A stretch of DNA of 52,210 nucleotides from a virus. The translations under genes and the position numbers were made by a program. Each line of letters starts with the position of its first letter. Positions within the stretch are counted from its first letter, which is position 1. The notes beneath the pieces were generated by a model. The model ran no database searches and was not told the origin of the DNA. It saw nothing but the letters and a program-made list of their open reading frames with translations. The stretch covers positions 1 through 52,210 of IMG/VR virus record IMGVR_UViG_3300044515_000086; one strand, given 5' to 3'. Shown one piece after another: positions 18,882 to 52,210 of this stretch.

Positions 18882-19105
18882 GACGACGATACCTCGTGAA
18901 AGAAGTGGGGACCGTGAGGTGCCTGGCTTCCGGGGTATCTGTCGCGCTCATCGAGCGGGGTGGCCTTATGGCGCCGCTCATTAAGCGTTCGAGTGCCGAT
19001 CGTCGTGGCGTTCTTGCCCTGGGCGCCGCGAACGCGGGGTGACCCAGTCGCGCCAACCTTAATCTGGGCGCCGGCGAGCGTCAAGAGCGACTTCGAGTAA
19101 TGCAT
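18878..19105 (-). CDS. Hypothetical small basic protein before the capsid gene
   Basis: 75 residues, Gly- and Arg-rich, ending HGPHFFHEVSSS. The stop overlaps the capsid start (ATGA). The ATG at 19105 lacks a clear SD but is 8 bases past the stop of a tiny upstream ORF, so coupling could start it. No family recognised; it may be a minor head component. Confidence 0.45.
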   Translation of the reverse strand: MHYSKSLLTLAGAQIKVGATGSPRVRGAQGKNATTIGTRTLNERRHKATPLDERDRYPGSQAPHGPHFFHEVSSS

Positions 19106-19113
19106 CACAAATG

Positions 19114-19218
19114 TCAACGCAACGGATGCGCGTTCAGCACTGCCTGTGCGCGCTTGGCTTCCTTGCCGCCCTTCTTGACCGCCTCCTCGAGTTTCGCATG
19201 CAGGATCTTCTCGTCCAT
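19114..19218 (-). CDS. 34-residue basic helical ORF
   Basis: Starts MDEKILHAKLEEAVKKGG and continues as a Lys/Ala-rich amphipathic helix ending NAHPLR. It fills the gap between the 126-aa and 75-aa genes on the same strand. No strong SD. Its composition looks protein-like, so it is listed as a probable tiny gene, but translation is uncertain. Confidence 0.4.
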   Translation of the reverse strand: MDEKILHAKLEEAVKKGGKEAKRAQAVLNAHPLR

Positions 19219-19244
19219 CCAGTGTTTTCAACCCATGGGCTTCT

Positions 19245-19625
19245 TTAAGCTTTTGACTTCGCGGCCGTCGGCTTCACGGGTTCCTTATCCGCTGCGGTAC
19301 GCGGTGGCCAGAACCAGCCGACGGCGCTCTCATCATCCGCTTTGACCTCAGCCATCGATTCGGCGGTGTGCGTCATGTGATCGCCCGTGAATATCTGCAC
19401 ATCGATCGAGCCATCCTCGCGCACCGCGGTGACGATGCCCGGGGCGGTACCGTGGTGTTCACGGCGCGTGATCACGATGCGGCCCATGCTCGGCAGCTGT
19501 TTGGGCTGCGATGCGGCCTGCCCTGCTTCCTGTTTCGTATCGGTGGGCGTTCCGAGGCCTGATGTGGGACTTTCGCCGGGCGCAGGGGCGCTCGCAACTT
19601 CTTGATTAGGATCGGTCATCGTCAT
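19245..19625 (-). CDS. Hypothetical protein, 126 aa
   Basis: An N-terminal third rich in Pro, Ala, Gly and Gln (disordered) is followed by a small beta-type domain (about 48-90; RIVITRREHHGTAPGIVTAV) and a Lys/Ala-rich end (AAKSKA). It lies between scaffold and capsid genes and has an SD (GGAG) upstream. Probably a head-assembly accessory; no family recognised. Confidence 0.55.
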   Translation of the reverse strand: MTMTDPNQEVASAPAPGESPTSGLGTPTDTKQEAGQAASQPKQLPSMGRIVITRREHHGTAPGIVTAVREDGSIDVQIFTGDHMTHTAESMAEVKADDESAVGWFWPPRTAADKEPVKPTAAKSKA

Positions 19626-19664
19626 CTCCTTCAGTTGATCAGTGTGGGAAAAAAGTGGGGAATC

Positions 19665-20747
19665 TTAAGCGGCGGTGCGCTTCTTCATGGCCTCGCGCGC
19701 ATCGATGAGCGCGCGGTACTCGGTCTGGACCTTAGGATCGGCGTAGTACTTCCGGTAGCTCTCGCTGCCTTTCTGCGCGCCCATCCAGCCCTCGATCTCG
19801 CCGATGCGCGCATCGACGCCTTTCTGATCGAGCGAGCCGCCATCACCGCCAACCGGGACGGAGTAGGGATTGACGGTGCGCGCGAGCTGCGCAAGCCAGC
19901 GCACCACTTCCGGCGTACCGACGAGCGCATTGCCATCCGGGGTGCGCGCCTGCAGGAATGCTTCCCGCACATCCGCGGGCGCGCCGTTGAGCATGCCGTG
20001 AATGTTGTTGATCTCGGCGCGGTAGTTATTGCCCCAATCCGCGCGCAGCGCATCCTCGGTCTTGGTGCGCAGCTGGCCATCCGCCTCGACGCGAGCCTCG
20101 ACCTGTCGATCCTGCTCGGCCTGGCGCACGGCGATGAGCTCGGAGGCCTGCGTCGGCGTCAAGTTCAGTTTGTGAAGCGCCGTCAAGTACGGCGTGATGA
20201 TCGCCTTATCATCATCGGTGAGCGTTTCCGCCACGTCCTTTGGCAACGCCTCGAGGTACGCCTCGGCCTTCTCCGGAATACCGTTGTCCTTGCGGAACGC
20301 CGTGATCTGCTCAGGGGTCGCATCCTTTGGGAGTACGGTCTTCGCAACCGTGGATAATTCGGCAATCCGCTGATCCGCAGCGTACGCAGAATCAAGCGCC
20401 GTCTTGATATCGGTGCGCCGTTCGGCCCATGCCTTTTTCTTATCATCGGCCCCGGCCCAGCTGCTGCGCCAATGATCGGCATCGTAGTTCGCCGAGGGGG
20501 TAGGTGCGGGTGCCGGCGCATCCGTCGGCGCCGGTGCTGCCGCGGGAGCGGGTGTCGCGCTGGGACTTGGGGCTGGCGCCGGTGTTGCCGACGGGGAAGG
20601 CGCCCCCGATGGCGACGGTGTCGGAGCGGGACTCGGCGCCGGACCAGGCGCGGGTGCTGGCGCAGGTGCGGGCGAAGGCGCTGCACTCGGGCTGGGTGCA
20701 GGAGCCGCTGCAGGGGCGGGTGCTGGTGTGGGAGCTGCTTGTGGCAT
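19665..20747 (-). CDS. Scaffolding protein with long Ala/Pro repeat N-terminus
   Basis: 360 residues. About the first 85 are almost wholly Ala, Pro, Ser and Gly in short repeats of the APAPSPS type; the rest is acidic, charged and helical, as in phage scaffolds. It lies between portal and capsid genes, the standard scaffold site. The low-complexity arm is coded by an imperfect GC-rich repeat tract (about 20495-20740). Scaffolds direct procapsid assembly and are lost on maturation. Confidence 0.75.
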   Translation of the reverse strand: MPQAAPTPAPAPAAAPAPSPSAAPSPAPAPAPAPGPAPSPAPTPSPSGAPSPSATPAPAPSPSATPAPAAAPAPTDAPAPAPTPSANYDADHWRSSWAGADDKKKAWAERRTDIKTALDSAYAADQRIAELSTVAKTVLPKDATPEQITAFRKDNGIPEKAEAYLEALPKDVAETLTDDDKAIITPYLTALHKLNLTPTQASELIAVRQAEQDRQVEARVEADGQLRTKTEDALRADWGNNYRAEINNIHGMLNGAPADVREAFLQARTPDGNALVGTPEVVRWLAQLARTVNPYSVPVGGDGGSLDQKGVDARIGEIEGWMGAQKGSESYRKYYADPKVQTEYRALIDAREAMKKRTAA

Positions 20748-20750
20748 GTT

Positions 20751-21095
20751 CTATTGTTCCTTCGGAGTCTCGCCCTGTTCTGTTGTCTTGCCGCGCAACC
20801 GGGCGATGTTGAGCTGCGCAAACTTCACCATCTGTAATCCAACGAAGCGTTTGCCTTCGGCGAACGCGGTGTCGCGATCACTCGTCGGCCGATACGAGAG
20901 GTCATACGTGCCGCACACCTGATGCACGATGAAGTTCATCGCGCGCCGTTGCTGCTCCTCGCTCGCGCGCCCCGTCATGACGGCCTGCACCGAATAGGCA
21001 TCCTCCGGCTCCCACTCGGCCGGCTTCCAAGGTTCTGCGCGCGGCACATTCGGGATGCGGCCGCGGGCAGTACGCTGCTGCGTCGGCGGCTTCAT
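20751..21095 (-). CDS. Bbp19-like phage protein
   Basis: 114 residues. The core matches the small phage family typified by Bbp19: a helical segment with VHQVCGTYDLSY, then the signature TAFAEGKRFVGLQM and a final helix. The family lies next to portal and scaffold genes in many podoviruses, but its function is unknown. The ATG at 21095 overlaps the previous stop (ATGA). Confidence 0.7.
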   Translation of the reverse strand: MKPPTQQRTARGRIPNVPRAEPWKPAEWEPEDAYSVQAVMTGRASEEQQRRAMNFIVHQVCGTYDLSYRPTSDRDTAFAEGKRFVGLQMVKFAQLNIARLRGKTTEQGETPKEQ

Positions 21096-21361
21096 GCGGC
21101 GGGTGGCTTGGAGGAGGAAAAATCCTCATCGACGCCGGAACCTGCTGTCATGACATCCAGCCCGCGATGTAGCCATCCGGTTGCCTCGAGTGCCGAGGTG
21201 CGCTCCCCGAATCCGCGCACGCACACGAAACCATCCGCATAGCCGACAACAACGATCGCGGTACGCAGTTCACCGGACCGGCGTTCGTATTCGGCCGCCA
21301 TCTCGCGCAATTTTGCCGGTACATCGAGGAGTGAGACACGCTTGATCTCGTGAAGACTCAT
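21092..21361 (-). CDS. Hypothetical protein, 89 aa
   Basis: Small alpha/beta protein: a helical start (AKLREMAAEYERRSGE), two strands (TAIVVVGYADGFVCVRGFG) and an acidic C-terminus. The ATG overlaps the portal stop and its own stop overlaps the next ATG, so it is a coupled gene in the head operon. Function unknown. Confidence 0.55.
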   Translation of the reverse strand: MSLHEIKRVSLLDVPAKLREMAAEYERRSGELRTAIVVVGYADGFVCVRGFGERTSALEATGWLHRGLDVMTAGSGVDEDFSSSKPPAA

Positions 21362-23025
21362 CCGATACCGCCCGCCGGTGCGCCCTGGAAGCTCTTAACC
21401 GCCGCGCCCATGGACTGCGCAGCGTTTCCGGCATTTTGAATCTGCTGCGTGCGCAACGCCTGATTCTGTTGCTGCTGCTTCGCTTGCGCGATCTGGGCCA
21501 CTTCCTCAGGATCCCTAAGCCACGTCGCCGGCACGCCCACTCCGGTGAGTGCATCGCGCAAGGCATCCGAGGCATTAAGCTCAGCTCCGACATTCGGATC
21601 GAGCTGTACCGCGGCGCCGATGAGCTGCGCGGCCTGCAGCAGCAGCGCGCCCTTCTTGCGCTCGGTCGCCTGGTGCAGCGGGGACTCAAACCGAAACTTC
21701 ACGTTCTGGCCGCGCACCGATTGCGGGATGTCGCGATAGCTGCCAAAGGCATTCTGGTTGAACAACGCCTCGAACGTATCCTCGCACAGCGCCGCGTTGT
21801 ACTCGGTCTCAACGGGCTCAAAGAGCGGCAGCGCCGAGCGGATCCACTCCTGGATGCGTTGTCCGGTTTCATACGCGGTCATGTCGCGATCGGGCGCCGG
21901 CAGCGCGAGCTTGTTGAGGTAGAAGGCCTCCGACAGTTTCTCGCGCGCATCTTTCAGCATTTCCATGCCGGCGGGCAGTCCCCCGGTTGAGAGCTGGATC
22001 GGGCGCAGTGCTTCGCCCAAGCGCTCATCGTATTCGGCATCGACCCAGGTGATGCCGCCGGAATACAGCGCGACGTCCGAACGAATCGCTTCCTGCGTCG
22101 CGATCAACGGCGGCCGCACACTGTTCTCGCCCGCCTCCATCAAGGTGAGCGTCATCGCTTGAAGCAAGCGCGCATCGGGAAGCCCGGCCACGGCCGCCGG
22201 CGAGTAGGCCCACTGGGAACCTGACACCGTCTCCCAACGCGGGATGGTGTAGATGCGCGAGAAGCTGGCCGATTCCTCGAGCACTGCGCCGTTCTCCAAG
22301 TCGACGTAGATCTGCACCCACGGTGTGCGGTACTTGAGCGGCTTATCCTGACCCGGACCTGCGACGCGATCGTAATCCTCGCCCGGGATTACGGCGTGCA
22401 TGCAGCGCACCTCGCGATGCGGCTCGGTCTTGACCCAATTGTCGATCGCCTTCGGGTAGGTCTTCGGAAAGCGCTTGATGAGCTCCGCGCCGCTCGGATT
22501 CCACCAGCGATACACCTCACCGATCGAGCCGTCGTATTTTTCGGCCCACACCGTATCTTTCAGATGCCATGACCGGTACAGGAGGCGCAGCTCCTTCATG
22601 TCGGTCTCGCGCGTGATCACGGCGTTGCCGAACGTGGCGAAATCCCCGTCGGCTTCCTTGGTGGCGCGCGCGAACTGAGCCTTGTTGTCGTACATCGCAG
22701 CGCGCTGCACCTTGGTTGCCCACTCGAGCCACGCCCGTCCACGCCGATCGAGGCGCTCCTCCCGATCGATAGTCATCTCGAACCAGTCCTGATCGCGCGG
22801 CCGCAGCATCGCGGAGAACGTGTTCTTCAATTCCCTGGCGACGATCAATGGGTAGCTCGTTAGCTGGATATCCATGAACTGCTCGGACAGGTAGAACTGC
22901 CGGGTGAACTGTGCGCGCAGCGGGTGAAACTGTTCGGCGAGCTCCTGCCAGAACGGCAGCAGCGCCATGCGCTTGCCGCGCAGCGAGTCGGCGCGGCGCT
23001 CTAGCGTATCGACGGGTTCTGCCAT
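21358..23025 (-). CDS. Portal protein (podovirus head-to-tail connector)
   Basis: 555 residues. It has the podovirus connector layout: an N-terminal helical part with a KRMALLPFWQELAEQFHP motif, a middle with the Trp-rich DWFEMTIDREERL segment and RYWSW-type clip/stem residues, and a C-terminal Gln-rich helix (EEVAQIAQAKQQQQNQ). It forms the dodecameric vertex through which DNA is packaged and ejected. Length and position, between terminase and scaffold, match the family. Confidence 0.88.
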   Translation of the reverse strand: MAEPVDTLERRADSLRGKRMALLPFWQELAEQFHPLRAQFTRQFYLSEQFMDIQLTSYPLIVARELKNTFSAMLRPRDQDWFEMTIDREERLDRRGRAWLEWATKVQRAAMYDNKAQFARATKEADGDFATFGNAVITRETDMKELRLLYRSWHLKDTVWAEKYDGSIGEVYRWWNPSGAELIKRFPKTYPKAIDNWVKTEPHREVRCMHAVIPGEDYDRVAGPGQDKPLKYRTPWVQIYVDLENGAVLEESASFSRIYTIPRWETVSGSQWAYSPAAVAGLPDARLLQAMTLTLMEAGENSVRPPLIATQEAIRSDVALYSGGITWVDAEYDERLGEALRPIQLSTGGLPAGMEMLKDAREKLSEAFYLNKLALPAPDRDMTAYETGQRIQEWIRSALPLFEPVETEYNAALCEDTFEALFNQNAFGSYRDIPQSVRGQNVKFRFESPLHQATERKKGALLLQAAQLIGAAVQLDPNVGAELNASDALRDALTGVGVPATWLRDPEEVAQIAQAKQQQQNQALRTQQIQNAGNAAQSMGAAVKSFQGAPAGGIG

Positions 23026-23026
23026 G

Positions 23027-23299
23027 TCAGGGCCCGAGCTTATCGCCCGTCGTATTCGCGGCGCCGGTGTTGGTGAGCACGGTCGAGGTGCGACCGTAGC
23101 GAAGCGCAGCGTCTTTCGATTCCTGCAGCGTCTGCGCCTGGGTGAGTGTCGCCTGATCTGGCATCACGGGCGGTGGCCCAGGCGCGAGCGGCGAATTGAT
23201 CCCGATCGAGCCTTTCACGTCGGAGCCTTTCCACGGATTCTTGCCCGTGATTGCCATACCGCCGCCGATGACAAGTGCGCCGACTGCTGCCATACCCAT
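23027..23299 (-). CDS. Small podovirus head protein with conserved C-terminus
   Basis: 90 residues. A hydrophobic Gly-rich N-terminus (about 2-18) is followed by a Pro-rich linker and a helical segment that ends ALRYGRTSTVLTNTG. A similar (R.G.ASTILT) ending is common on small proteins between terminase and portal genes in podoviruses. Start ATG with SD (GAGG). Function unknown. Confidence 0.6.
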   Translation of the reverse strand: MGMAAVGALVIGGGMAITGKNPWKGSDVKGSIGINSPLAPGPPPVMPDQATLTQAQTLQESKDAALRYGRTSTVLTNTGAANTTGDKLGP

Positions 23300-23311
23300 G
23301 AGAGGTGCCTC

Positions 23312-23494
23312 CTATTTACCCAGAATCGAGGTGGGCGCGACGAGCGCGGCGTGATTCGGTACGCCCTTCTTCGTGCGCTTCATCGAACGCCCGCGCTGAT
23401 GCGGGTTCAACTTCGCGAGTGCGCCGGGCGCTAAATCCTGAAGCGGGGTATCGGGATGCAGCGGCATGCCGGCGGACACGTTATGTTTTGCCAT
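23312..23494 (-). CDS. Hypothetical basic protein, 60 aa
   Basis: Short Lys/Arg-rich protein (NPHQRGRSMKRTKKG in the middle) with no membrane or enzyme motif. It sits between terminase and portal genes, 5 bp from the terminase stop and 12 bp from the next gene, so the spacing is operon-like. A nucleic-acid or head role is possible but unsupported. Confidence 0.5.
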   Translation of the reverse strand: MAKHNVSAGMPLHPDTPLQDLAPGALAKLNPHQRGRSMKRTKKGVPNHAALVAPTSILGK

Positions 23495-23499
23495 GGCGC

Positions 23500-25104
23500 T
23501 TACCTCTTGCCCGGTCGATGACGGGGACCTAAATCAATCTTGAAACCACCGCCAGGTCCTGCGCGATGTCCACGTTGGGGGATGTACTGCTCGCGCCCGA
23601 ATTGCCCGGGCCCAGCCATCGGAGCTAAACCTCGAAGCCCAGCGCTCCAGGCGAGCACCACCGCATCGCCTTTGTCGGGCGAATGACCCAAGAGCTTCAC
23701 GACCTCGTCCTTCTCGAGGACCTTGATGCCGCGAGCGACCACCTCGTAGGTGAGCACGGTCAGATCGCTTACGAGCTCTGGGTCCGGCGGCAACGCGATG
23801 GGCGAGCCGCCTAACTGATCCGGATCCAGGGCTTCGCGAAACAGCCAGTACACTTCCGAGCGCTTGTTGACGAAGGCGAGCTTTTTATCTCGCGTACGCT
23901 TCATCGATTTGTTGGCGCCCTTGTGCACCTGCACCGGGATCTCGTTCTCAACCAGGGTCGTGTACGTGCCGCCGCCGTAGCCGCCGCCCATGTCGAGCAC
24001 GATGTCGGCCGAGTCGCGTCGAGCTGCGACCACGTGCCCCGCGCCTTGGGATCCGAGTTTGACCTCGATGCCAGGAATGCATTTCAACGGCGCATACCAG
24101 CCATCATTGCGGGTCGCGATCGTGAAGCGATCTTTGCCGCCCTCCGCCGGATCCACGCCCAGCGCACACATCGGCACGCCTTGCGGCGGCTGCGCTGTCC
24201 AACGCTTTTGCGCCTCCAGCACCCAGCCGGTCGGGACCACTTGGAAGGGGTGATCTTTCAGTGCCTTGTCGAACCGGCCGCCCCGATACGCATCGCGCAG
24301 CTCCTTGGGCAACTGCGCGAGCGTCGCATCGTACTCATCGCGATCCAGGTCCGGATTATCCTCAAGCCGCGCGCGAATGAAGGTGCGGCTCTTGGCGTAG
24401 GTTTCCTTCCCATCCACCACGTAAGGCCCGGGTCCATCGACGTCGATCTCGGTGTCATCGTCCTGGCGCAGATACCAGCGCAGCTCGCCGTCCTTGGCCG
24501 GGTTTGGATGACGCGGGTCGAGCCACGCACTCCACCGCTTAATGACCCACAGGCCTTTCGCTCTGGTCGGCGGATTCCCGGTGCAGACGATGCGGGAGCG
24601 CTGCCCGGGGTAGGTCGAGCGGTTCCACCCGGTGACGAACAGGTACTGGCTCTCCGTGAAATCAGGGATCTCATCGAAGCCGTAGAAGTCGCGCGCCTTG
24701 CCCTTGTGGTGCTCTTTGTCCTTCTCGTTAGGTAACCCAAAGAAATTGAAGCGCTGCTCACCGCTGCGCCAAGTCGCCTGCTGATCGTTCCAGCCACTCG
24801 TCGAGCCCACGATCTCGCACAGTCGAGTCCCTAAGGCCCGGGCATCATCCTTGAACTCGCGAAAGATGCTCGCCTGCCTGTGATCGTTGAGCGCAAGTCC
24901 CAACACCAGATCCGACTTGCCCCCGCCGGCCTCGCCGCCGTAGTACAGCTCATCCGCTTCGGAGTAGTACGCTTCCGTCTGCGGTCCTGGGTTTGGAACC
25001 CAGCGCAGGTGCGCGGTGGCATCGAGCGCCTCCTCCTCGAGCTTCGCGCGCGCCGCCGGCGGCAGCCCCTCAAGTGCCTGCAGGATCTGCTCGAGCTGCT
25101 GCAT
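23500..25104 (-). CDS. terL: Terminase large subunit
   Basis: 534 residues. The ATPase domain has Walker A (GGEAGGGKS, residues 56-64), Walker B with the catalytic Glu (FYGFDEIPDF, about 140-149) and the coupling motif VCTGNPP. The C-terminal RNase H-like nuclease has acidic positions in LGVDPAEGGKD, VLDMGGG and KGDAVVLAWSAG. It powers DNA packaging and cuts the concatemer. It follows the small subunit in the operon, after two intervening genes. Confidence 0.92.
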   Translation of the reverse strand: MQQLEQILQALEGLPPAARAKLEEEALDATAHLRWVPNPGPQTEAYYSEADELYYGGEAGGGKSDLVLGLALNDHRQASIFREFKDDARALGTRLCEIVGSTSGWNDQQATWRSGEQRFNFFGLPNEKDKEHHKGKARDFYGFDEIPDFTESQYLFVTGWNRSTYPGQRSRIVCTGNPPTRAKGLWVIKRWSAWLDPRHPNPAKDGELRWYLRQDDDTEIDVDGPGPYVVDGKETYAKSRTFIRARLEDNPDLDRDEYDATLAQLPKELRDAYRGGRFDKALKDHPFQVVPTGWVLEAQKRWTAQPPQGVPMCALGVDPAEGGKDRFTIATRNDGWYAPLKCIPGIEVKLGSQGAGHVVAARRDSADIVLDMGGGYGGGTYTTLVENEIPVQVHKGANKSMKRTRDKKLAFVNKRSEVYWLFREALDPDQLGGSPIALPPDPELVSDLTVLTYEVVARGIKVLEKDEVVKLLGHSPDKGDAVVLAWSAGLRGLAPMAGPGQFGREQYIPQRGHRAGPGGGFKIDLGPRHRPGKR

Positions 25105-34537: not shown

Positions 34538-34598
34538 GATATGCAATGGGTTGCCTTCAAATGTTAGCGTGCAATGCGGCAACTCTTTTCCGAGAGGA

Positions 34599-34612
34599 GG
34601 TAATAACTTCCC
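34599..34612. promoter_or_regulatory. Imperfect operator upstream of the cI-like gene
   Basis: GGTAATAACTTCCC differs from the operator consensus GGTAA-N4-TTACC at one base in the right half-site. It lies 8 bp before the cI-like start, so it may give autoregulation. It also overlaps a purine-rich GAGGAGG. Confidence 0.45.
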
Positions 34613-34620
34613 TGTTCGTA

Positions 34621-34962
34621 ATGGACGAACAGATCAAAAACTTCGGCCGCAATGTCCATTCCCACATGGAGCATCAGGGCCTCACCACAGCCACCTTGGC
34701 GAAGCGCGCAGGCATTGCGCCTAAAACTCTCAACAATGTCTTGAACGGCCGCCACGCGACACAGCTCGATGTGCTCACGAAGATCGCTAAGGGGCTGAAG
34801 GTTGAGCTGTGGCAGCTCTGGCTCCCTGAGTTCCCCGCCGACGTCGCGCACGATGAAACCTTTCCCAGACTGATCGCGACCGCATCGAAGTTAAGTCCCG
34901 TCGCGCTCAAGGCCGTCGCCCGCATGGCGGACCTGGAATTAGAGGCTGGCCGACGTTCATGA
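34621..34962 (+). CDS. CI-like phage repressor (XRE-family HTH)
   Basis: 113 residues. The N-terminal 60 are an XRE HTH: HMEHQGLTTATLAKRAGIAP and TLNNVLNGRHATQLDVLTKI. The rest is a short helical tail with no S24 peptidase motif (no Ser-Lys catalytic pair seen), so it is not a self-cleaving CI and release must work differently. The ATG at 34621 is chosen; in-frame ATGs at 34546 and 34561 give longer forms, and the nearest SD (GAGGAGG) is 20 bases away. It lies between two sets of operators, like cI. Confidence 0.7.
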   Translation: MDEQIKNFGRNVHSHMEHQGLTTATLAKRAGIAPKTLNNVLNGRHATQLDVLTKIAKGLKVELWQLWLPEFPADVAHDETFPRLIATASKLSPVALKAVARMADLELEAGRRS

Positions 34963-36287: not shown

Positions 36288-36436
36288 GTAAACAACTCAC
36301 CGAGCTCGAGCTTGCGACGGCGCGCCACTGGTTTTGCAAGCTGCAGCGCCTCCTCGCGCAGCGCAAAGACCGGGAGCTCGAGCGCCGCTCCAAGCAATCG
36401 CCGCACGCCTTCCTTCGTCTGCAGGCGGGAGAGTAA
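36284..36436 (+). CDS. 50-residue basic protein
   Basis: Begins MSKQLTELELATARHWFCKL; helical, Lys/Arg-rich, ending in AFLRLQAGE. ATG overlaps the previous stop (ATGA) and the next gene starts 2 bp after its stop. A partner of the exonuclease that follows is possible. Confidence 0.45.
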   Translation: MSKQLTELELATARHWFCKLQRLLAQRKDRELERRSKQSPHAFLRLQAGE

Positions 36437-36438
36437 TC

Positions 36439-37350
36439 GTGGCGCTCACTGCCGAACAGATAGTGACACGCCAGACCGGCATCGGCGGCTCGGATGCCGC
36501 GGCCGCGCTGGGCTTGTCGAAGATGAAGACGGCGCTCGAGCTCTACCTTGAGAAGCGCGGCGAGATCGCGCGCGCGGAGCCGGCGGCCAATGATGAGGTC
36601 ATCTGGTGGGGCCGCGCGCTCGAGCCGATCGTGCGCCAGAAGTACGCCGAGACCACGGGGCGCGTGGTGGTGATGCCGCACGGCACGCTGCATCACCCGG
36701 TGCATCGCTTCATGCTCGCGCACGTCGATGGATTGATCGATGGCGAGCCGCGCGGTTATGAAGGCAAGACCGCCTTTCGCTCAACCGGCTGGGGCGATGA
36801 GGGCACCGATCAGATCCCGCGCGAGTACCTGCTGCAGGTGCACCACTATCTCACCGTGTGCGATTTCGAAGTGTGGGATGTGTGCGCACTTATCGGTCGA
36901 CACTTCGCCATTTACGAAGTGCCACGCGATCGCGAGATGTCAGAAATGCTGATCCACGTCGAGGGCGATTTCATGCGCCGCGTGCGCGAGGGTCACCCGC
37001 CTGGTCTTGACTACGATCACCCGACCGCGCGCGACGTGCTCAAAAAACTCTACCCGGGCACCAATGGCGCGCGCCTCGTGGCCTCTGAATCAGCGATCGC
37101 CTGGCGCGAGCAATTGGCCGCGGCGCAGACCGCCGAGAAGACGGCGAAGGCGAACATCGAGAGCTTGAAGTCACGGCTCCTCGAGGAGATGGGCGAGGCG
37201 GCGCTGCTCGCCTTTCCTGACGCGAAGTGCTATCGCCGGCAGGTCACCCAGCGCGCGGGCTACTCAGTCGAGCCCACCGAATACGTCGATTTTCGCCTTA
37301 TAAATGACGGCAAAGCGGCCGCCCTTCTCAAAACACGGAGCACGATGTGA
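36439..37350 (+). CDS. YqaJ-type exonuclease (lambda Exo-like recombinase nuclease)
   Basis: 303 residues. Characteristic blocks are present: TGIGGSDAAAALGLSKMKTA near the N-terminus, GRALEPIVRQKYAE, the catalytic core AHVDGLIDGEPRGYEGKTAF (acidic residues then the E-x-K motif), and YLLQVHHYLTVCDF. It resects double-stranded ends to give 3' overhangs for annealing. The GTG at 36439 follows GGGAG. It opens a recombination module with the next two genes. Confidence 0.85.
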   Translation: MALTAEQIVTRQTGIGGSDAAAALGLSKMKTALELYLEKRGEIARAEPAANDEVIWWGRALEPIVRQKYAETTGRVVVMPHGTLHHPVHRFMLAHVDGLIDGEPRGYEGKTAFRSTGWGDEGTDQIPREYLLQVHHYLTVCDFEVWDVCALIGRHFAIYEVPRDREMSEMLIHVEGDFMRRVREGHPPGLDYDHPTARDVLKKLYPGTNGARLVASESAIAWREQLAAAQTAEKTAKANIESLKSRLLEEMGEAALLAFPDAKCYRRQVTQRAGYSVEPTEYVDFRLINDGKAAALLKTRSTM

Positions 37351-39870: not shown

Positions 39871-40310
39871 TTCGAACCGGTCGACCACTCAAGCCGCCCC
39901 TCTACGTGCTGCCGCATGGGATTGAGGTCATCGGTGAATATCCGCCGGGAGGCGCTAATCGATACTGGCGCGTCCGCCTCCGACCGCACCACTTCTTTCC
40001 GACGGTCCGTTCGGTCAGAGGCGGCATCTATGTACGCCGCAGCCGCGTGATCTTGGCATCAAAGCTCGGGCGTGCACTGAGACCGAAAGAGCATGCGCAT
40101 CACAACGATGAGGACCGCGGTAACGACGCCGTCGGGAATATCGAGCCGCTCTCGCCGGCTGCGCACAACCGCCACCATAAGACCGGGTCGCGCCATGCCG
40201 TCATCAGCAAGCGACGTATCAGCGAGTCGCTGAAGCGCGCGTATGCCAGCGGTGCGCGTCGGCGTCCCGTGATTTCAACTCGCGACAACCTCGGAAGGAT
40301 CTCCCGATGA
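39867..40310 (+). CDS. HNH homing-type endonuclease
   Basis: 147 residues. The HNH core is in the middle: LRPKEHAHHNDEDRGNDAVG followed by NIEPLSPAAHNRHHK (H...N...H). The C-terminus is Arg/Lys-rich and has a NUMOD-like RISESLKRAY helix, common in homing endonucleases that bind DNA. GTG start overlaps the ATPase stop (GTGA). Second of three HNH proteins in the window. Confidence 0.75.
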   Translation: MIRTGRPLKPPLYVLPHGIEVIGEYPPGGANRYWRVRLRPHHFFPTVRSVRGGIYVRRSRVILASKLGRALRPKEHAHHNDEDRGNDAVGNIEPLSPAAHNRHHKTGSRHAVISKRRISESLKRAYASGARRRPVISTRDNLGRISR

Positions 40311-40927
40311 GCTTAGCTATTTTTTACGATTCGGAGACGACCGGCCTGCCGCTTTTCAGCGAGCCGAGCGAGGATCCGCGCCAGCCGCACATCGTGCAGC
40401 TCGCCGCCTGCTTAGTCGACCTCGAGACTAAGGCGACGATCGCGAGCATGGATGTGATCGTGCAACCGCGGGGCTGGGAAATCCCGGATGACGTCGCGGC
40501 CATCCATGGCATCACGACTGAGCACGCGACGGACGTCGGCATCCCAGAATCGGTCGCGGTCAACATGTTCATCGAACTGTATCGATTCCGGCCGCGCATC
40601 GCGCATAACGAGGCCTTCGACGCTCGTATTTTACGCATTGCATTAATTCGTCACGCGATCAACGCCGCACTTCCGGATCTGTGGAAGGGGGGGGCAGCCA
40701 TTTGCACTCAGGCGCTCTCGACGCCGATCTTAAAGCTCCCACCGACCGCGAAGATGATCGCCGCGGGCCGGCGCCATCACAAGAGCGCGAACTTGCGCGA
40801 GGCCTATCGGCACTTCACTGGCAACGAGCTCGTCGGCGCCCATCAGGCCATGGTCGATGTGCAGGCCTGCATGGCGGTTTACTTCGCGATCCTCGAGCAG
40901 ACGCGCCGCGCCGCGGCCGCGGTGTAA
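40307..40927 (+). CDS. DnaQ-like 3'-5' exonuclease (DEDDh)
   Basis: 206 residues. Exo I is FYDSETTGLP (D8, E10), Exo II is AHNEAFDARI (D105), and Exo III is GAHQAMVDVQAC (His and Asp, about residues 180-187), so all catalytic residues are present. Phages use such exonucleases in recombination or proofreading. It follows the recombination module and overlaps the HNH gene by 4 bp. Confidence 0.88.
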   Translation: MSLAIFYDSETTGLPLFSEPSEDPRQPHIVQLAACLVDLETKATIASMDVIVQPRGWEIPDDVAAIHGITTEHATDVGIPESVAVNMFIELYRFRPRIAHNEAFDARILRIALIRHAINAALPDLWKGGAAICTQALSTPILKLPPTAKMIAAGRRHHKSANLREAYRHFTGNELVGAHQAMVDVQACMAVYFAILEQTRRAAAAV

Positions 40928-40952: not shown

Positions 40953-42485
40953 ATGACCATCGCATCCACAGCCGACGGCACCCGTGCCCTCTCGATCGGG
41001 GAGTTGAAAGTATCGACCACCGCCGGCCAGGCCGAACGGCGCAAGCATTTCGATAAGGTTGAACTCGATCAGCTCGCCAAGTCGATCAAGAAAGTGGGTG
41101 TGCTCTCGCCCATCCTCGCTCGCCCGGTCAACGGACACTTCGAGATCGTGTTTGGCGAACGGAGATTCATCGCCGCGAAACTCGCCGGCCTCACCGCGAT
41201 CGACGTCTCCGTGCGAACTTTAAGCGATGAGCAGGTGCTCGAGGTGCAGCTGATTGAGAACCTGCAGCGCGAGGGGCTGCATCCGCTCGCGGAGGCGGAA
41301 GGCTACGAGCAGCTGCAGGGGTACGGGCATTCTGCCGAGGAGATCGCCGACAAGCTCGGCAAATCGAAGGCGTACGTTTACGGCCGTATGAAACTGCTGG
41401 CGCTCGGGCCCGCGGCCCGCGAGGCCTTCTACCGCGGCGAATTGAACGCATCGACCGCGTTGCTGCTCGCCAGGATCCCCGTCGAGTCCCTGCAGTCGGA
41501 TGCCCTGAAGGCGATTACCGGCAAGCGCTGGAATAACGAAGTGATGTCGTTCCGCGAGGCCGCCGAGGTCATCCGGCGCGATTACATGACCAATCTGTCG
41601 GACGCAGGATTCCCCACCGAGGATGCGACGCTGGTGGCGGCCGCGGGCGCATGCGGCGCATGCCCGAAGCGCACGGGCAATCAGGCTGAACTCTTCGACG
41701 ATGTGAAAAGTGGGAACGTATGCACTGACCCGATTTGCTTCAAAGCCAAGCGCCAGGCGCACGCCGCGCGGGCGATCGCGCAGGCGAAGGAAGACGGGCA
41801 GCAGGTAATCACCGGCGCTGAGGCGAAGAAGATCATCCCATGGCAGCACAGTCTGGCGACGGGCTACTCAAAGCTGTCGGACGTATGCTACGACGACAAG
41901 AAGCAACGCACATACGCGCAGCTGCTCGGCAAGGACTTCAAGCCGACGCTCGTCCAAAACCCCGAGACCGGCGTGTTGGTCAAAGTCGTCACGCCGGCCG
42001 CCGCCAAGCAGGCGAGGCTCGACAACAATATCAAGCCGCCGACCTACAGCCAGCCGACGCGCGGCGCGAAATCCGGTGGGACGTCAAATAAAGCCGAGAC
42101 CGCATTTCGCGAGGCTCTATTTCTCGCCATTCACGCCAAAGCGCCGAAGAAGTTGAGCCGCCACGTGCTCGAGACGATCATCGAACACGAGCTGGATGCC
42201 ATCGGTGAACTGCCCAATGTTCTGACGAAGGCCTGGGGATGGGATGCCGACACGCACAACCTCGAGAGCCTCACCGAGCCGCAGCTAAACCAGTTCCTGT
42301 TCGAGCTGTGCGTTGTCGAGGAGCTCAACATGTCGGCGTACGCGCAGACGCCGAAGCTGCTCAATCTCGCCAAGTCGATGAAGATCGACACGAAGAAGAT
42401 TCGCAAGGCTATCGCCGCCGCGGCCAAGCCGGCGACGAAGGCGAAAGCGGCGCCTAAGAAAAAGTCGACCACCAAAGGAAAATAA
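40953..42485 (+). CDS. ParB-like protein, 510 aa
   Basis: The N-terminal ParB nuclease-like fold holds GERRFIAAKLAGL (arginine-rich box II) and LIENLQREGLHPLAEAEGY, then an HTH (EEIADKLGKSKAYVYGRMKL). A Cys-rich patch (GACGACPKR, CTDPICF) and a Lys/Ala-rich end follow, as in larger ParB-like phage proteins. There is no ParA partner nearby, so plasmid-style segregation is unlikely; gene control, nicking or anti-defence are options. It directly precedes the DGR. Confidence 0.75.
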   Translation: MTIASTADGTRALSIGELKVSTTAGQAERRKHFDKVELDQLAKSIKKVGVLSPILARPVNGHFEIVFGERRFIAAKLAGLTAIDVSVRTLSDEQVLEVQLIENLQREGLHPLAEAEGYEQLQGYGHSAEEIADKLGKSKAYVYGRMKLLALGPAAREAFYRGELNASTALLLARIPVESLQSDALKAITGKRWNNEVMSFREAAEVIRRDYMTNLSDAGFPTEDATLVAAAGACGACPKRTGNQAELFDDVKSGNVCTDPICFKAKRQAHAARAIAQAKEDGQQVITGAEAKKIIPWQHSLATGYSKLSDVCYDDKKQRTYAQLLGKDFKPTLVQNPETGVLVKVVTPAAAKQARLDNNIKPPTYSQPTRGAKSGGTSNKAETAFREALFLAIHAKAPKKLSRHVLETIIEHELDAIGELPNVLTKAWGWDADTHNLESLTEPQLNQFLFELCVVEELNMSAYAQTPKLLNLAKSMKIDTKKIRKAIAAAAKPATKAKAAPKKKSTTKGK

Positions 42486-43097
42486 ATGAACGCAGTATCG
42501 ATCGATATTCCGCCGGCCGTGGCCGCACTCCTCGAGGGCGGCTTCTATGCCGGCCGCATTCTCATTGCGGGCGTTCTCTATGCGCTGATCGTGGCACCCA
42601 AAGCTGAGGGTGAGCGCAAGCCGGGTGTGTGGTCCAAATCGGAGAAATCGATTGCCGGTGCCATGAGCTGGAATGACGGCCTGGCGAACACCGGCGCGAT
42701 GTCCGATGCGGGAAGCGCGCTCGCGAAGTGGGCGCAGGGCCTCACCATCGGCGGCTATTCGGATTGGTACCTGCCGGCGCTCGATGAGCTCGAGCTCTGC
42801 TATCGATATCTGAAACCGACCGCGGAGCCAAGCTATCTTTGGAGCCGATCGGGCATCAACGTGAGCGCGGTCCCACCGACGTATCCGTATGTCGCGGATT
42901 CCCCGGCGCAGACCGAACACGAGATCTTCCGCGCCGGCGGCGCGGAGGCCTTCGCCGATGAAATTTACTGGAGTTCGACGCAGCACGCCTCTGGCAGCAA
43001 CTACGCCTGGAGCCAGCATTTCAGCAACGGCTGCCAGAGCTACTGGTTCAAGGGCCATCACTTCAGGGCTCGCGTCGTCCGCAGATTAGCCATTTAA
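42486..43097 (+). CDS. DGR target protein 1 (C-type-lectin-like, carries VR1)
   Basis: 203 residues. After an N-terminal helical part with a short hydrophobic segment (GGFYAGRILIAGVLYALIVA) comes a DUF1566/CLec-like domain: WNDGLANTGAMSDAGSALAK, GGYSDWYLPALDELELCYR, then YWSSTQHASGSNYAW and the FRARVVRRL end. The last 35 residues are coded by VR1. The fold tolerates mutable surface residues and binds ligands. ATG follows AAAGGA and immediately abuts the parB stop. Its ligand is unknown. Confidence 0.88.
   Translation: MNAVSIDIPPAVAALLEGGFYAGRILIAGVLYALIVAPKAEGERKPGVWSKSEKSIAGAMSWNDGLANTGAMSDAGSALAKWAQGLTIGGYSDWYLPALDELELCYRYLKPTAEPSYLWSRSGINVSAVPPTYPYVADSPAQTEHEIFRAGGAEAFADEIYWSSTQHASGSNYAWSQHFSNGCQSYWFKGHHFRARVVRRLAI
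42978..43086 (+). repeat. DGR variable repeat 1 (VR1)
   Basis: 109 bp aligned to TR 44196-44304 without gaps. Thirteen positions differ and every one is an A in TR (to G, T or C). The rest, including the last 24 bp (TCAGGGCTCGCGTCG start), is identical. The 3' end diverges right after GCAGAT, marking the IMH boundary. Confidence 0.95.
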
Positions 43098-43136
43098 CCA
43101 TTCATCTATTTTTCCAAGGGCTTTAAAGGGGCATCC

Positions 43137-43640
43137 ATGAACGTGACCAAGAACGGCATCACCATCACCATCTCGGACGCTGAGGTCGTCAAGATGGCGC
43201 TCGAGCGCCTGAACGACGCACCGAGCCCCGTCGCCTTTGTCCACCTCGAATCCGACGTCCCTCGCATTGGCGAACACTGGTCGACTCAGGGCGGCATCTA
43301 TGCAGGCGTGGCGCGTGGCCGCGATGGTGCGCCGGACTATCACCTGATCGTAGGCCCTGAGTTCGACGGTCAAACGGACTGGGACGGCGCCGGCAAGTGG
43401 GCGGCCGGCGTGACAGTCCATGGGTTTTCTGACTTCGCGCTGCCGTTTCGCAAGGAGCAGGCGCTCAGCTTCGGGAACGTGCCCGAGCTATTTAAGGAGG
43501 AGTACTACTGGTCGTGCGAGCAGCGCGCCTCTAGCAGCAACTACGCCTGGGACCAGCATTTCAGCAACGGCTACCAGACCACCTGGTACAAGGACGATCA
43601 CATCAGGGCTCGCGTCGTCCGCAGATTAGTAATTCAGTAA
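43137..43640 (+). CDS. DGR target protein 2 (C-type-lectin-like, carries VR2)
   Basis: 167 residues. The start NVTKNGITITISDAEVVK is followed by a CLec-like domain: HWSTQGGIYAGVARGRDGA, VHGFSDFALPFRKEQAL, YYWSCEQRASSSNYAW and the RARVVRRL end. VR2 codes the C-terminal 35 or so residues. SD AAAGGGG at 8 bases. It shares the C-terminal fold with target 1 but the N-terminal halves differ, suggesting two ligand-binding partners or positions fed by the same TR. Confidence 0.88.
   Translation: MNVTKNGITITISDAEVVKMALERLNDAPSPVAFVHLESDVPRIGEHWSTQGGIYAGVARGRDGAPDYHLIVGPEFDGQTDWDGAGKWAAGVTVHGFSDFALPFRKEQALSFGNVPELFKEEYYWSCEQRASSSNYAWDQHFSNGYQTTWYKDDHIRARVVRRLVIQ
43520..43626 (+). repeat. DGR variable repeat 2 (VR2)
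   Basis: 107 bp aligned to TR 44198-44304. Nine positions differ and all are A in TR. Two residue positions differ from VR1, which shows independent mutagenesis of the copies. The last 26 bp are identical to TR and VR1. Confidence 0.95.
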
Positions 43641-43667: not shown

Positions 43668-44027
43668 ATGGCCATCCATACCAAGTTACCGATCTACAAA
43701 GTCGCCTATGACCTCCTGAGCGTCGCCGTGGACTATGTGCAGAACATGCCACGGGACTTCAAGGCGGCCATCGGCGGCCGAGTGCGCGATCTGTGCGTCG
43801 ATATCGTCCTGTCGATCTTCAAGGCCAATTGCGCGGCCGAGAAGACCCCGTACCTCGATCTGCTGCTCGAGCAGGTCGAGGAGCTGCAGCTGCTCCTGCG
43901 GCTTTGCCAGGACAAGCGATTCATCTCAAAGCCGCAGTACGCGGCCGCGGTGGAGTTGACGAACAGCGTCGGTCGGCAGGCGAACGGATGGAGGAAACAC
44001 TTTGCAGCAGCATCGCCCGTTACCTGA
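43668..44027 (+). CDS. avd: DGR accessory variability determinant, Avd-type four-helix protein
   Basis: 119 residues, all helical, with the pattern of bAvd-family four-helix bundles (IYKVAYDLLSVAVDYVQNMP, VRDLCVDIVLSIFKAN, LLLEQVEELQLLLRLCQDKR, ELTNSVGRQANGW). Avd forms a pentamer that binds RT and template RNA and is needed for mutagenic homing. It lies between the targets and the TR, as in Bordetella phage BPP-1. Confidence 0.88.
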   Translation: MAIHTKLPIYKVAYDLLSVAVDYVQNMPRDFKAAIGGRVRDLCVDIVLSIFKANCAAEKTPYLDLLLEQVEELQLLLRLCQDKRFISKPQYAAAVELTNSVGRQANGWRKHFAAASPVT

Positions 44028-45420
44028 TCGTCAAGGCGGTCCGGTCAGTGCGACGATTAATCTGGTCGCGCCGCTGGCATCCACAGCCACCGACAAGCGC
44101 ATCCGGGATATCGCCGGTCGTCCCACGATCCGGAGTCGATCCCGCGCAGTTTCCCCACTGAGAGTTCGGTGGGGCGACATCGATAGCGCGAACCTACGCA
44201 GCACGCCTCTAGCAGCAACAACGCCTGGAACCAGAATTTCAGCAACGGCAACCAGAACAACTGGAACAAGGACAATCACATCAGGGCTCGCGTCGTCCGC
44301 AGATAATCATGCAAGGGAAGGCCATGCCGATTTTTCCTTCTTGGAGCTCACGCAAGCCTATTTCGACTGCCGCGAGCACAAGCGCAACACCCGATCCGCC
44401 CTCGCCTTCGAGCAGAACCTAGAACACAATCTGCTCCGGTTGTGGGATGACCTGCAATCGGACGCCTATCGCCCAGGCCCATCGATCTGCTTCGTCATCA
44501 CACGCCCAAAGCCGCGGGAGGTGTGGGCCGCCAACTTCCGCGATCGCATCGTGCACCATCTGCTCTATAACCGGATCGCGCCACGCTTCCACCGAGCCTT
44601 CATCGCGGATTCCTGCGCCTGCATTCCTGGCCGCGGCACCCTCTACGCTGCGAAGCGTCTCGAGGCCAAGGTGCGCAGCATCACCCAGAATTGGCAGCGG
44701 CCTGCGTTCTACCTTAAATGCGACCTCGCGAACTTCTTCGTCAGCATCGACAAGCGCATCGTCCGGGATCTGCTCGCGCCCAAGGTTACTGAAGCCTGGT
44801 GGCTGCGCCTCGCCGAATCGATCCTGTTTCACGACCCGCGCTCGAAGGTCGAGCTGCGCGGACATCGAGAGCGCCTCGCGCTCGTGCCGGCCCACAAGAG
44901 CCTCTTCAATCAGGTCCCGGGGAAGGGGCTGCCGATCGGCAACCTCTCCTCGCAGTTCTTTGCGAACGTGCTGCTCGATTCCCTCGATCAGTACGTCAAA
45001 CAGAAGATAGGCGCGGCGTACTACATCCGCTACGTCGATGATTTCCTGCTGCTGCACGAATCGGCGCAATGGTTGAACGCCGTTCGGGCGGACATCGAGG
45101 CGCATCTTAAGACGCTTGGGCTGCGGCTGAATCCCACCAAGACGATCCTGCAGCCGATCGAACGTGGGATTGACTTCGTCGGCCAGGTGATCAAGCCGTG
45201 GCGGCGTACGCTGCGCCGGCGCACGTACCGCGACGCGCTTCACCGAGTCGCAACGATTACGAACGCCGATCTCTTTCAGACCGCCAACAGCTACTTCGGG
45301 CTGCTACGCCAGGCGACGCACAGCCGCCGCGATCGGATGCGACTCGCGAAGGTCATTGGCCGCCGCGGCCGCGCGGTGGATCTGGCGCTCACCAAAACCT
45401 ATCGCGGGAATTTTCTTTAG
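44002..45420 (+). CDS. DGR reverse transcriptase
   Basis: Retron/DGR-type RT core from about 44338 on: ELTQAYFDCREHKRNTRS, LRLWDDLQSDAYRP, FLKCDLANFFVSID (catalytic D), GLPIGNLSSQFFAN (DGR-type motif), YVDD at 45031-45042, and a thumb with LNPTKTI. It reverse-transcribes TR RNA with adenine errors. No ATG or GTG lies in frame upstream of the core; the TTG at 44002, seven bases after GGAGG, would run through the TR, and TTG 44341 is a second option. ATG at 44324 is one base out of frame. Confidence 0.9.
   Translation: MQQHRPLPDRQGGPVSATINLVAPLASTATDKRIRDIAGRPTIRSRSRAVSPLRVRWGDIDSANLRSTPLAATTPGTRISATATRTTGTRTITSGLASSADNHAREGHADFSFLELTQAYFDCREHKRNTRSALAFEQNLEHNLLRLWDDLQSDAYRPGPSICFVITRPKPREVWAANFRDRIVHHLLYNRIAPRFHRAFIADSCACIPGRGTLYAAKRLEAKVRSITQNWQRPAFYLKCDLANFFVSIDKRIVRDLLAPKVTEAWWLRLAESILFHDPRSKVELRGHRERLALVPAHKSLFNQVPGKGLPIGNLSSQFFANVLLDSLDQYVKQKIGAAYYIRYVDDFLLLHESAQWLNAVRADIEAHLKTLGLRLNPTKTILQPIERGIDFVGQVIKPWRRTLRRRTYRDALHRVATITNADLFQTANSYFGLLRQATHSRRDRMRLAKVIGRRGRAVDLALTKTYRGNFL
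44196..44304 (+). repeat. DGR template repeat (TR)
   Basis: Invariant source copy for VR1 and VR2. It carries AAC/AAT codons at the positions that vary, as expected of adenine-directed diversification. It ends at GCAGAT followed by AATC, where the VRs read TAG. It lies between avd and the RT core and inside the RT reading frame as extended to TTG 44002. Confidence 0.95.
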
Positions 45421-45861
45421 ATGCCGATCCGCCCCGAAAACCTCGCTCGCTACCCTGCTGACTGGCAGCAGATCCGGGAGCGGATCCGCAAGCGCGCCGG
45501 CAACCAGTGTGAGGAGTGCGGCGTCGCGAACTACGCGCTCGGCGGGCGCCTGCGCGACGGCACTTGGTATAAGGCACTCCCCCTCGGGGACAACGGCCTG
45601 GCGCTGCAGTGGCCGGCGGCTGGCAGCTGGGCATGGTGCGAGCGATTCGGTCATCACATGATGCTGCGCATCGTCAAGATTGTTTGCACGACTGCGCACC
45701 TCGATCACGTTCCGGAGCATTGCTGGGACGACAACCTGCGCTTCTGGTGCCAGCGATGCCATCTGCGTTACGACCACGCAGAGCACCAGCGCCATGCCTA
45801 CGAGACCCGGCGCGCCGGCCGCGCGATCGAGATGTTCCCAACACAGGAGTCAACGGGATGA
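45421..45861 (+). CDS. HNH nuclease downstream of the DGR RT
   Basis: 146 residues. HNH elements are complete: C30-C33 (NQCEECG), catalytic TAHLDHVPEH (H93-H96), DDNLRFWCQRCHLRYD (N105, C110, C113, H114). Its ATG is the base after the RT stop, so it is probably co-expressed with the DGR. Third HNH protein here. It might act in retrohoming (a nick at the target) or be an unrelated passenger; I have no direct evidence. Confidence 0.8.
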   Translation: MPIRPENLARYPADWQQIRERIRKRAGNQCEECGVANYALGGRLRDGTWYKALPLGDNGLALQWPAAGSWAWCERFGHHMMLRIVKIVCTTAHLDHVPEHCWDDNLRFWCQRCHLRYDHAEHQRHAYETRRAGRAIEMFPTQESTG

Positions 45862-50820: not shown

Positions 50821-51023
50821 AGTGGGTAACGATCAAAAAGGCTGCCGAATTATCGGGTTACACCGAGAAGGCAATCGAGGCGAAACGAGCCGACGGCACC
50901 TGGCTGGAGAACGTCGTATGGATAAAAGCCCCGGATGGCCGTATCTTGATCTCAACGGAGGGGATCGACGCATGGGCAGAGGGTCGGGCGTGCGCGCCGC
51001 AAGCAGAACCTCAATCGAGATAA
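50817..51023 (+). CDS. Excisionase-like DNA-binding protein, 68 aa
   Basis: Begins MKWVTIKKAAELSGYTEKAI, a winged-HTH of the Xis/MerR-like type (AELSGYTEKAIEAKR, then a wing GTWLENVVWIKAPDGR). GTG overlaps the previous stop and its end overlaps the integrase start by 52 bp. Its place directly before int is typical of xis, which steers integrase toward excision. Confidence 0.7.
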   Translation: MKWVTIKKAAELSGYTEKAIEAKRADGTWLENVVWIKAPDGRILISTEGIDAWAEGRACAPQAEPQSR

Positions 51024-52210
51024 CGTTCGAATATCGCAGCGTCCGCTGCCGCCAAAAGCTCAAGCTCCCACCCAACCATGCAAACCTCAAATATGCGCAA
51101 CGCTTCAAGGCGACGATCGAGCACGAGATCGAAACCGGCGTGTTCGACTACGCCAAGCATTTCCCGCGCAGCCCTCGCGCCAAGTTATTCGCCAAAGTGC
51201 CAGCGACAGTTGTCACCGTCGGAGAACTGCTCACCGAATGGCTGGCCTCAGTTCAACGCAAGCTCGAGCCTGAGACCTATGATCTCTACGCGCGCTACGT
51301 CCGCACGACCTGGCGTCCACGTTTCGGCCGGTCGTTCCTTGTCGACTTGACGGCGGCGCGCCTCGAGGAGTGGATCGGCGAGCAGACGACGACGCGCAAA
51401 CGTATCTTGAATCTGCTGACGCCGCTGCGCCAGGCGCTTAGGTTCGCCGTGCATCCGCAGAAGTATCTGACCGTCGATCCGATTGCGAAGATCAAGATCG
51501 AGAGGCCGGCCGGCATAAAGAAGTCCCCGATCGACCCGTTCTCCATCGCGGAGATCGACGCGATCCTCGCCGTGCTCGATCCGCCGAGAGCCAACATGGT
51601 GCAGTTTTGGGTGTGGACTGGGCTTCGCGTCGGCGAGCTCGTCGCGCTCACGTGGAATGACATCGACGCCGAGCGCAGCACGGCCAGCATCACGAAGTCA
51701 GCCCGCGGCAGCCGGCGCAAAGCGCCGAAGACCCAGGCCGGGTTGCGCGACGTCAAGCTGCTGCCGCCAGCATTAGAAGCCCTGGGGCGGCAGAAGGCGG
51801 TGACCCGACTCCTACACCGGGAGATCTTTTTAGACCCAGGCGCACCTGTCCGGTATCGCGACGCCGAGGGAAAATGGCACACGCCGACCGGCAACGTCGA
51901 GCGCAAGCCGGAGACCGTCAACCAGCCGTGGAAGAGCGACAAGGATATCCGCAAGTGGTGGCGGCAGGCATGCGTGGCGGCCGACGTGCGCTACCGGTTC
52001 CCGCGCCAGCTGCGGCACACCTATGCATCGTGGATGCTCAAGTTTCGCGAGGAGCCATTGTGGATCTCCAAGCAGATGGGCCACGCGAGCGTCTCGGAGA
52101 CGCTGGAGACCTATGCGAAGTACATTCCGAGCATGAGCCCGGACGCCGGAATGGGCGCGTACGCCGCAATTATGGCGTCGAAAAAGGACACGATTGGGAC
52201 GCGGTCGTGA
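50972..52210 (+). CDS. int: Tyrosine recombinase integrase
   Basis: 412 residues. An N-terminal arm-binding part (SRTSIEITFEYRSVRCRQKL) and core-binding helices are followed by the catalytic domain: GLRVGELVALTW (Arg), FPRQLRHTYASWML (His...Arg type box), MGHAS and the nucleophile Tyr in ETYAKYIP. All expected residues appear. The ATG at 50972 is preceded by GGAGG at about 9 bases. It integrates the phage at an att site that is not visible within the window. Confidence 0.92.
   Translation: MGRGSGVRAASRTSIEITFEYRSVRCRQKLKLPPNHANLKYAQRFKATIEHEIETGVFDYAKHFPRSPRAKLFAKVPATVVTVGELLTEWLASVQRKLEPETYDLYARYVRTTWRPRFGRSFLVDLTAARLEEWIGEQTTTRKRILNLLTPLRQALRFAVHPQKYLTVDPIAKIKIERPAGIKKSPIDPFSIAEIDAILAVLDPPRANMVQFWVWTGLRVGELVALTWNDIDAERSTASITKSARGSRRKAPKTQAGLRDVKLLPPALEALGRQKAVTRLLHREIFLDPGAPVRYRDAEGKWHTPTGNVERKPETVNQPWKSDKDIRKWWRQACVAADVRYRFPRQLRHTYASWMLKFREEPLWISKQMGHASVSETLETYAKYIPSMSPDAGMGAYAAIMASKKDTIGTRS

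Follow-up and report, generated by a model that had tools for sequence, protein, structure and literature searches.

A lineage of phage diversity-generating retroelements carries its lectin-fold targets in the early operon

The characterised targets of phage diversity-generating retroelements (DGRs) are mostly tail proteins (PMC8144416). In Bordetella phage BPP-1 (mtd-avd-TR-brt) the cassette is found in the late operon beside the tail fibre gene and serves one target, Mtd (381 aa); the DGRs of BPP-1 and phiARM81mr are both embedded among virion genes. In the BPP-1 record an early-operon gene (bbp36, L174 33229-33558) also bears the annotation 'variable region 2'. According to Roux et al. 2021, the viral targets of DGR clades 1, 4 and 6 are mostly assigned to tails and clade 3 is a mixture of viral and cellular systems, with non-structural targets mentioned only in general terms (PMC8144416). 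The commonest Pfam domain among DGR targets is reported to be DUF1566 (PMC6642488). Cellular DGR antigen-sensor targets have a lectin fold, several are predicted to be cytoplasmic, and a role in conflict or bacterial defence has been proposed for them (PMC10907252); these systems are bacterial and are tied to NACHT/STAND and other conflict systems. The paper describing Burkholderia phage Magia notes a DGR and suggests adaptation or a change of host range, leaving its early location undiscussed (PMC7883833). The open-licence literature searched yielded no description of a phage DGR lineage that is fixed in the early operon.

The DNA analysed here (the window) is a stretch of 52,210 nucleotides, IMG/VR record IMGVR_UViG_3300044515_000086, from a temperate, podovirus-like phage that is a distant relative of BPP-1 (TerL 40% identical, integrase 28%, portal 24%). 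It starts with an ATG at position 1 and finishes with the integrase stop codon at 52210, as if a provirus had been trimmed at gene boundaries. A two-operon genome layout is common to BPP-1 and the window phage. All packaging, head and tail genes found are on the minus strand between 2.6 and 25.1 kb, and the plus strand carries an early operon in the order Cro/C1-type regulator, RecE-like exonuclease, AAA ATPase, HNH, RNase_T and ParB, with the integrase last. The features of the two blocks and of the DGR cassette are as follows.

2556..25104, minus strand: late cluster (packaging, head, tail), the contrast to the early operon
12132-15708, minus strand: tail tubes, late cluster
15665-17119, minus strand: fibre-like gene, late cluster
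18036-18881, minus strand: major capsid, late cluster
21358-23025, minus strand: portal, late cluster
23500-25104, minus strand: TerL, late cluster
34546..34962, plus strand: Cro/C1-type HTH regulator at the head of the early operon (HTH_3, 34.6 bits)
36334..37350, plus strand: RecE-like recombination exonuclease, early operon (phrog_434, 1.8e-62)
40307..40927, plus strand: RNase_T-type exonuclease, early operon (RNase_T, 3e-12)
40953..42485, plus strand: ParB-like protein, 510 aa (ParB_N, 2e-21; HTH_ParB, 2e-12)
42486..43097, plus strand: target 1 (T1), 203 aa, Lcl_C/DUF1566 C-type-lectin-fold protein with VR1 C-terminal (Pfam Lcl_C, 48.8 bits, cut-off 34.9)
42980..43087, plus strand: VR1, 14 differences from TR, all facing TR adenines
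43137..43640, plus strand: target 2 (T2), 167 aa, N-terminal beta-hairpin and helix followed by a lectin-fold domain with VR2 (Pfam Lcl_C, 24.7 bits, below the cut-off)
43520..43627, plus strand: VR2, 10 differences from TR, all facing TR adenines
43668..44027, plus strand: Avd (accessory variability determinant), 119 aa (Pfam bAvd, 50.5 bits; phrog_3206 'Avd protein of DGR', 9.6e-32)
44011..44198, plus strand: RT-15 structured RNA (RF03018), between avd and TR (cmscan, 151.7 bits, gathering threshold 82, full-length model)
44198..44305, plus strand: TR, 108 nt
44311..45420, plus strand: DGR RT (RVT_1, 58.4 bits; phrog_1423, 8e-111; YVDD catalytic motif in the translation)
45421..45861, plus strand: HNH endonuclease, directly 3′ of the RT (phrog_1571, 3e-21)
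50822..52210, plus strand: integrase at the right end of the window, ~6 kb beyond the DGR (phrog_1, 1.7e-55; PF00589)

The window holds a complete DGR, consisting of T1, T2, Avd, the RT-15 RNA, TR and RT. The differences between TR and VRs are restricted to TR adenines (24/24 mismatches), which make up 36 of the 108 TR bases, giving a chance expectation of ~(1/3)^24. The RT is of the DGR type and lies beside TR, Avd is present, and a lectin-fold target carries its VR at the C-terminus. Within the window, tail genes included, no other TR-like copies or VRs were found. The start codon of the RT is uncertain: there is no in-frame ATG near the conserved start, leaving a TTG at 44341 or a far-upstream TTG at 44002, and the frame at 44311-44341 needs a TTG start if it does not hide a frameshift or a sequence error.

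The cassette resembles that of BPP-1 in its target-avd-TR-RT order, its Avd, its adenine-specific TR/VR pairs and its lectin-fold target with a C-terminal VR. It differs in that it lies in the opposite-strand early operon, has two short targets, carries the RT-15 RNA between avd and TR, and encodes an RT only 30% identical to that of BPP-1; moreover, no Mtd homologue was found in the window at 1e-3. The late-operon location of the BPP-1/Mtd type is not seen here. Instead the DGR sits between the HTH regulator (34.5 kb) and the integrase (52 kb), and the T1 ATG directly abuts the ParB TAA, with the RecE-like exonuclease, the AAA ATPase and RNase_T upstream on the same strand. An initial annotation of the window had placed the targets in the recombination/early region beside parB and on the strand opposite to the tail genes, and both statements hold. 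Its further claim of a distance above 25 kb from the tail cluster is right, in linear coordinates, for the tail-tube genes (~27 kb); virion genes, however, extend to 2.6-6.3 kb in the window, and the nearest would be ~12 kb away if the genome circularises at the integrase end. A scan of 40.2-46.3 kb for promoters and terminators gave no signal exceeding that of shuffled sequences. No ParA gene was seen near the ParB-like gene (40953-42485), the AAA ATPase and HerA-like proteins (38449-39870, 46972-48822) matched mad3 (1.5e-14) and mad8 (6e-12) of PADLOC, and a degenerate 21-bp tandem repeat is found at 32540-32623 within a minus-strand ORF.

When named phages were searched with the window RT by tblastn, nine records were recovered at 60-66% identity, the next falling to ~35%. 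These represent seven distinct temperate phages, Magia, QDWS, SC_8_H2H8_2017, Cruim01, LPPA56, phPA-G and Haboob (the zrk29-1 record is counted with QDWS on a match in identity and record length), of which Magia has the closest RT (66%). Scans of IMG/VR and GTDB added 160 further loci, ~126 of them with at least 59% RT identity. A TR-like repeat and adenine-biased VRs were detected in 137 of the 139 loci analysed (the clade and five sister loci), and TR directly precedes the RT in nearly all of the 139. A pair of VRs is present in 89 loci and a set of three in 31; one locus has four, and 16 have a single VR and often lie at contig ends. Additional remote VRs are found 2-10 kb upstream, on the repressor side. 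The sampled clade members group together in the RT tree (SH-aLRT 97), to the exclusion of BPP-1, VP58.5 and phiARM81mr.

The DGR of this clade is shared by phages of unrelated tail types. Magia and QDWS are taken as myovirus-like because baseplate genes are annotated in both, whilst Haboob, phPA-G and Cruim01 are taken as siphovirus-like because they have a tape measure without an annotated sheath or baseplate; the window phage is podovirus-like. Magia illustrates both sides of the comparison. Like the window phage it has Avd and small lectin-fold targets, one of them remote, in an early operon with RecT, an AAA ATPase and a nuclease; unlike the window phage it has baseplate and sheath genes.

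In the five annotated records inspected (Magia, QDWS, Cruim01, phPA-G and Haboob) the DGR lies between the repressor and the integrase, next to recT, exonuclease, ERF, Bet, SSB or methyltransferase genes, and the late genes are on the other strand. The same arrangement was surveyed in 101 loci, non-redundant at 90% RT identity, by searching for markers within 10 kb. An early marker (cI, integrase, parB or a recombination class) was found in 79/101 loci, with 142 of 148 early markers on the DGR strand, and a late marker in only 2/101, at 8.8 and 9.3 kb and both on the opposite strand; these counts rest on marker queries taken from a few phages and on ORFs called by length, and they speak to position rather than to expression. 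Integrase accounted for 33 matches, cI for 30, ParB for 29, Dcm for 19 and exonuclease for 10, with others making up the remainder. A PHROG scan of 296 neighbouring ORFs gave a similar picture, in which the top families were ParB, DNA methyltransferase, integrase and nucleotide-phosphatase, with exonuclease also represented; across the two top-25 neighbour lists only one virion-labelled family, with 3 members, appeared.

Forty whole records were also considered. An S24 repressor (cI) lies upstream on the same strand, at 3.4-11.7 kb, in all 17 records in which cI was found (17/17), terminase is on the opposite strand wherever it was found (11/11), and 28 of 32 integrase matches are within 8 kb when distances are taken circularly. 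Lcl_C matches elsewhere in these records were, in each case checked, no more than 10.6 kb from the RT and on its strand. Taken together, these data strongly support an early-operon position of the targets as a trait of the whole DGR lineage, as far as gene order and orientation can tell, and extend to the lineage the central idea of the initial annotation, that the targets belong to the early operon rather than the tail region. The position, downstream of cI, on its strand and before the integrase, is that of exclusion and counter-defence genes, which temperate phages often keep between repressor and integrase. Annotations close by in phPA-G, D3 and others include Lar-like proteins and methyltransferases.

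The recurrence of ParB-like proteins (29 marker matches over the 101 loci), DNA methyltransferases and exonucleases among the neighbours would suit a role in phage DNA metabolism, with the targets acting as adaptors for neighbouring recombination, ParB or methyltransferase proteins. Against this, none of the neighbours is found throughout the clade, and a hypermutating partner for the phage's own conserved enzymes would bring no evident benefit. We regard such a role as improbable.

Near-identical contigs were compared for signs of recent diversification. L058 and L062 are identical in RT, in TR (compared parts) and in 564 flanking bases, and their VR differs at 19 of 123 positions, all facing TR adenines. 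Similarly, L077 and L078 show 14 VR changes, 14/14 at TR adenines, with one change in 906 flanking bases. Other near-identical contig pairs show no VR change. As two pairs differ in their VRs at TR adenines, the lineage therefore diversifies its early targets in nature; the ongoing retrohoming seen in these pairs is shown for clade members other than the window phage.

The RT-15 RNA recurs in the clade. It ends where TR begins in the window (44198) and was found beside TR, on the RT strand, in 21/21 further clade loci scanned, and also in the sister loci L139 and L140; it is absent from sister locus L136 and from all four distant outgroup loci scanned. In L121 and L126 TR lies ~1.1 kb upstream of the RT, yet RT-15 still ends at TR, so RT-15 goes with TR rather than with the RT gene. 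In Rfam RT-15 has no description beyond that of an sRNA gene, and it may form the 5′ portion of the DGR template RNA. No paper naming RT-15 together with a diversity-generating retroelement was found among the open-licence papers searched.

The target proteins themselves were modelled with AF2. T1 forms a single compact lectin domain (pLDDT 96, pTM 0.92), and T2 a lectin domain preceded by a small hairpin and a helix at the N-terminus (pLDDT 93). The best PDB match for both is 8q4e, the C-terminal domain of Legionella Lcl (E 1.6e-5 for T2); only T1 reaches the Pfam Lcl_C cut-off, yet the T2 model matches the fold. T1 and T2 share the fold of this Legionella domain and of DUF1566 (PF07603), with the difference that in the clade the domain is nearly stand-alone and sits in phage early operons. 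Searches of viral and PDB folds with T1 and T2 returned the lectin fold only and no adapter or effector, and neither protein matched the PADLOC anti-phage library. In contrast to the cellular antigen-sensor DGRs, no effector was recognised beside the phage targets, and none of the neighbouring genes points to a binding partner.

The initial annotation had noted a short hydrophobic segment in T1. The hydropathy peak is real (19-residue KD 1.84), but in the model the stretch forms a beta-hairpin within the lectin fold (strands 19-27 and 30-36) and homologues have a polar turn at this position; on these grounds the membrane-anchor reading was rejected. A strongly hydrophobic N-terminus (17-residue KD of at least 2.0) was found in 0/286 clade targets, the highest value being that of the window T1 (1.98), and in 4 of 5 bacterial outgroup targets examined. 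Accordingly the hydropathy scan of the 286 targets gave no clear signal peptide or membrane anchor, with the proviso that such a scan is an incomplete test of secretion and that tail proteins too lack signal peptides.

These results bear on the possibility that the targets are displayed on the surface of the lysogen, where they would serve adhesion or hide receptors from other phages. Lysogens can express genes that lie downstream of cI, as is established for lambda cI-rexAB, and cellular outgroup DGR targets of related RTs bear pilin- or signal-like N-termini. Within the clade, the hydropathy scan showed no strongly hydrophobic, signal- or anchor-like N-terminus in any target and the one conspicuous hydrophobic segment is a hairpin, both of which argue against display; we consider it very improbable.

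A different possibility is that T1 and T2 are made early, attach to the particle and vary adhesion or host range, as a relocated form of the BPP-1/Mtd system. The products of early genes can be incorporated into virions, the precedent of the tail-protein targets cited above is in its favour, and other phages have Lcl_C domains in collagen-like, S74 and tail-fibre proteins. A weak fold match to an annotated virion protein of phage 201phi2-1 points the same way. On the other side, the targets have no tail-fibre N-terminus, and the trimerisation or virion-attachment domain of the BPP-1/Mtd type is missing, T1 being one lectin domain and T2 adding only a hairpin and a helix. The initial annotation had suggested structure prediction as a way of finding an adapter that binds a tail protein, and none emerged. 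Moreover, the targets occur with unrelated tail types, late markers are nearly absent from their surroundings, and the window phage has a fibre-like gene of its own in the late cluster.

Phages that carry the target without an RT are informative in this respect. D3, U9, PAN70, FBPa42, Medea1 and Aurca01 all keep an Lcl_C homologue between the repressor and integrase or recombination genes. In D3 this is orf68 (L175 24081-24641), a T1 homologue and the first gene past cI on the cI strand, which goes out of frame within the variable region; a search of 36 kb of D3 found no homologue of RT, Avd or T2. As D3 is a long-known infectious phage with a broken T1 homologue, the target would appear to be dispensable for D3 virions. 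The virulent phage PMBT3, by contrast with the early-operon position, has its T1 homologues in the late region near tail and lysis genes, with no RT among the matches listed, and this favours a virion role. Nothing usable on PMBT3 virion proteomics, or on Haboob with its RT, was found in the open-licence literature.

The sister locus L139, whose RT is 49% identical to that of the window, also speaks for a link with the tail. Its T1-like domain forms the end of a 589-aa protein (7507-9276) that adjoins a 2196-aa ORF; we read these sequences as tail-fibre-like and tape-measure-like, respectively. On that reading, the module beside the tail carries a fibre and the module of the early clade does not, a contrast that counts for the non-virion reading of the clade. 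Weighing both sides, attachment to the virion seems rather unlikely for the early clade. The three roles offered in the initial annotation therefore separate: action within the cell fits the data best, attachment to virions is less likely, and display on the lysogen fares poorly.

On balance, and with moderate confidence, we favour an active early-operon DGR lineage that diversifies soluble, non-virion, intracellular lectin-fold binders used in conflict. In this scheme the RT, assisted by Avd and probably by the RT-15 RNA, would miscopy TR at adenines, and the copies would be written into the 3′ ends of two target genes (up to four elsewhere). Retrohoming would alter the C-terminal binding faces of small soluble proteins with a C-type-lectin fold. 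The targets would be expressed with the early operon that is linked to the repressor (cI, recombination genes, integrase), either early in infection or in the lysogen, and not with the late virion operon, and most likely would remain cytoplasmic in the infected or lysogenic cell. The candidate partner is a fast-changing one in a conflict with the host or with another phage: host defence proteins, for example, or the proteins of a competing phage. The fuller version of this proposal, in which a retroelement hypermutates soluble cytoplasmic binders as a form of adaptive recognition against host defences or rival phages and RT-15 is the 5′ part of the template RNA, is put forward tentatively.

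Phage DGRs have so far been explained almost wholly as host-range devices. The cultured members of the clade (Haboob, phPA-G, Magia, QDWS, Cruim01 and LPPA56) make the idea testable. If it is true, phages with unrelated tails would also be evolving something intracellular at a hypermutation rate.
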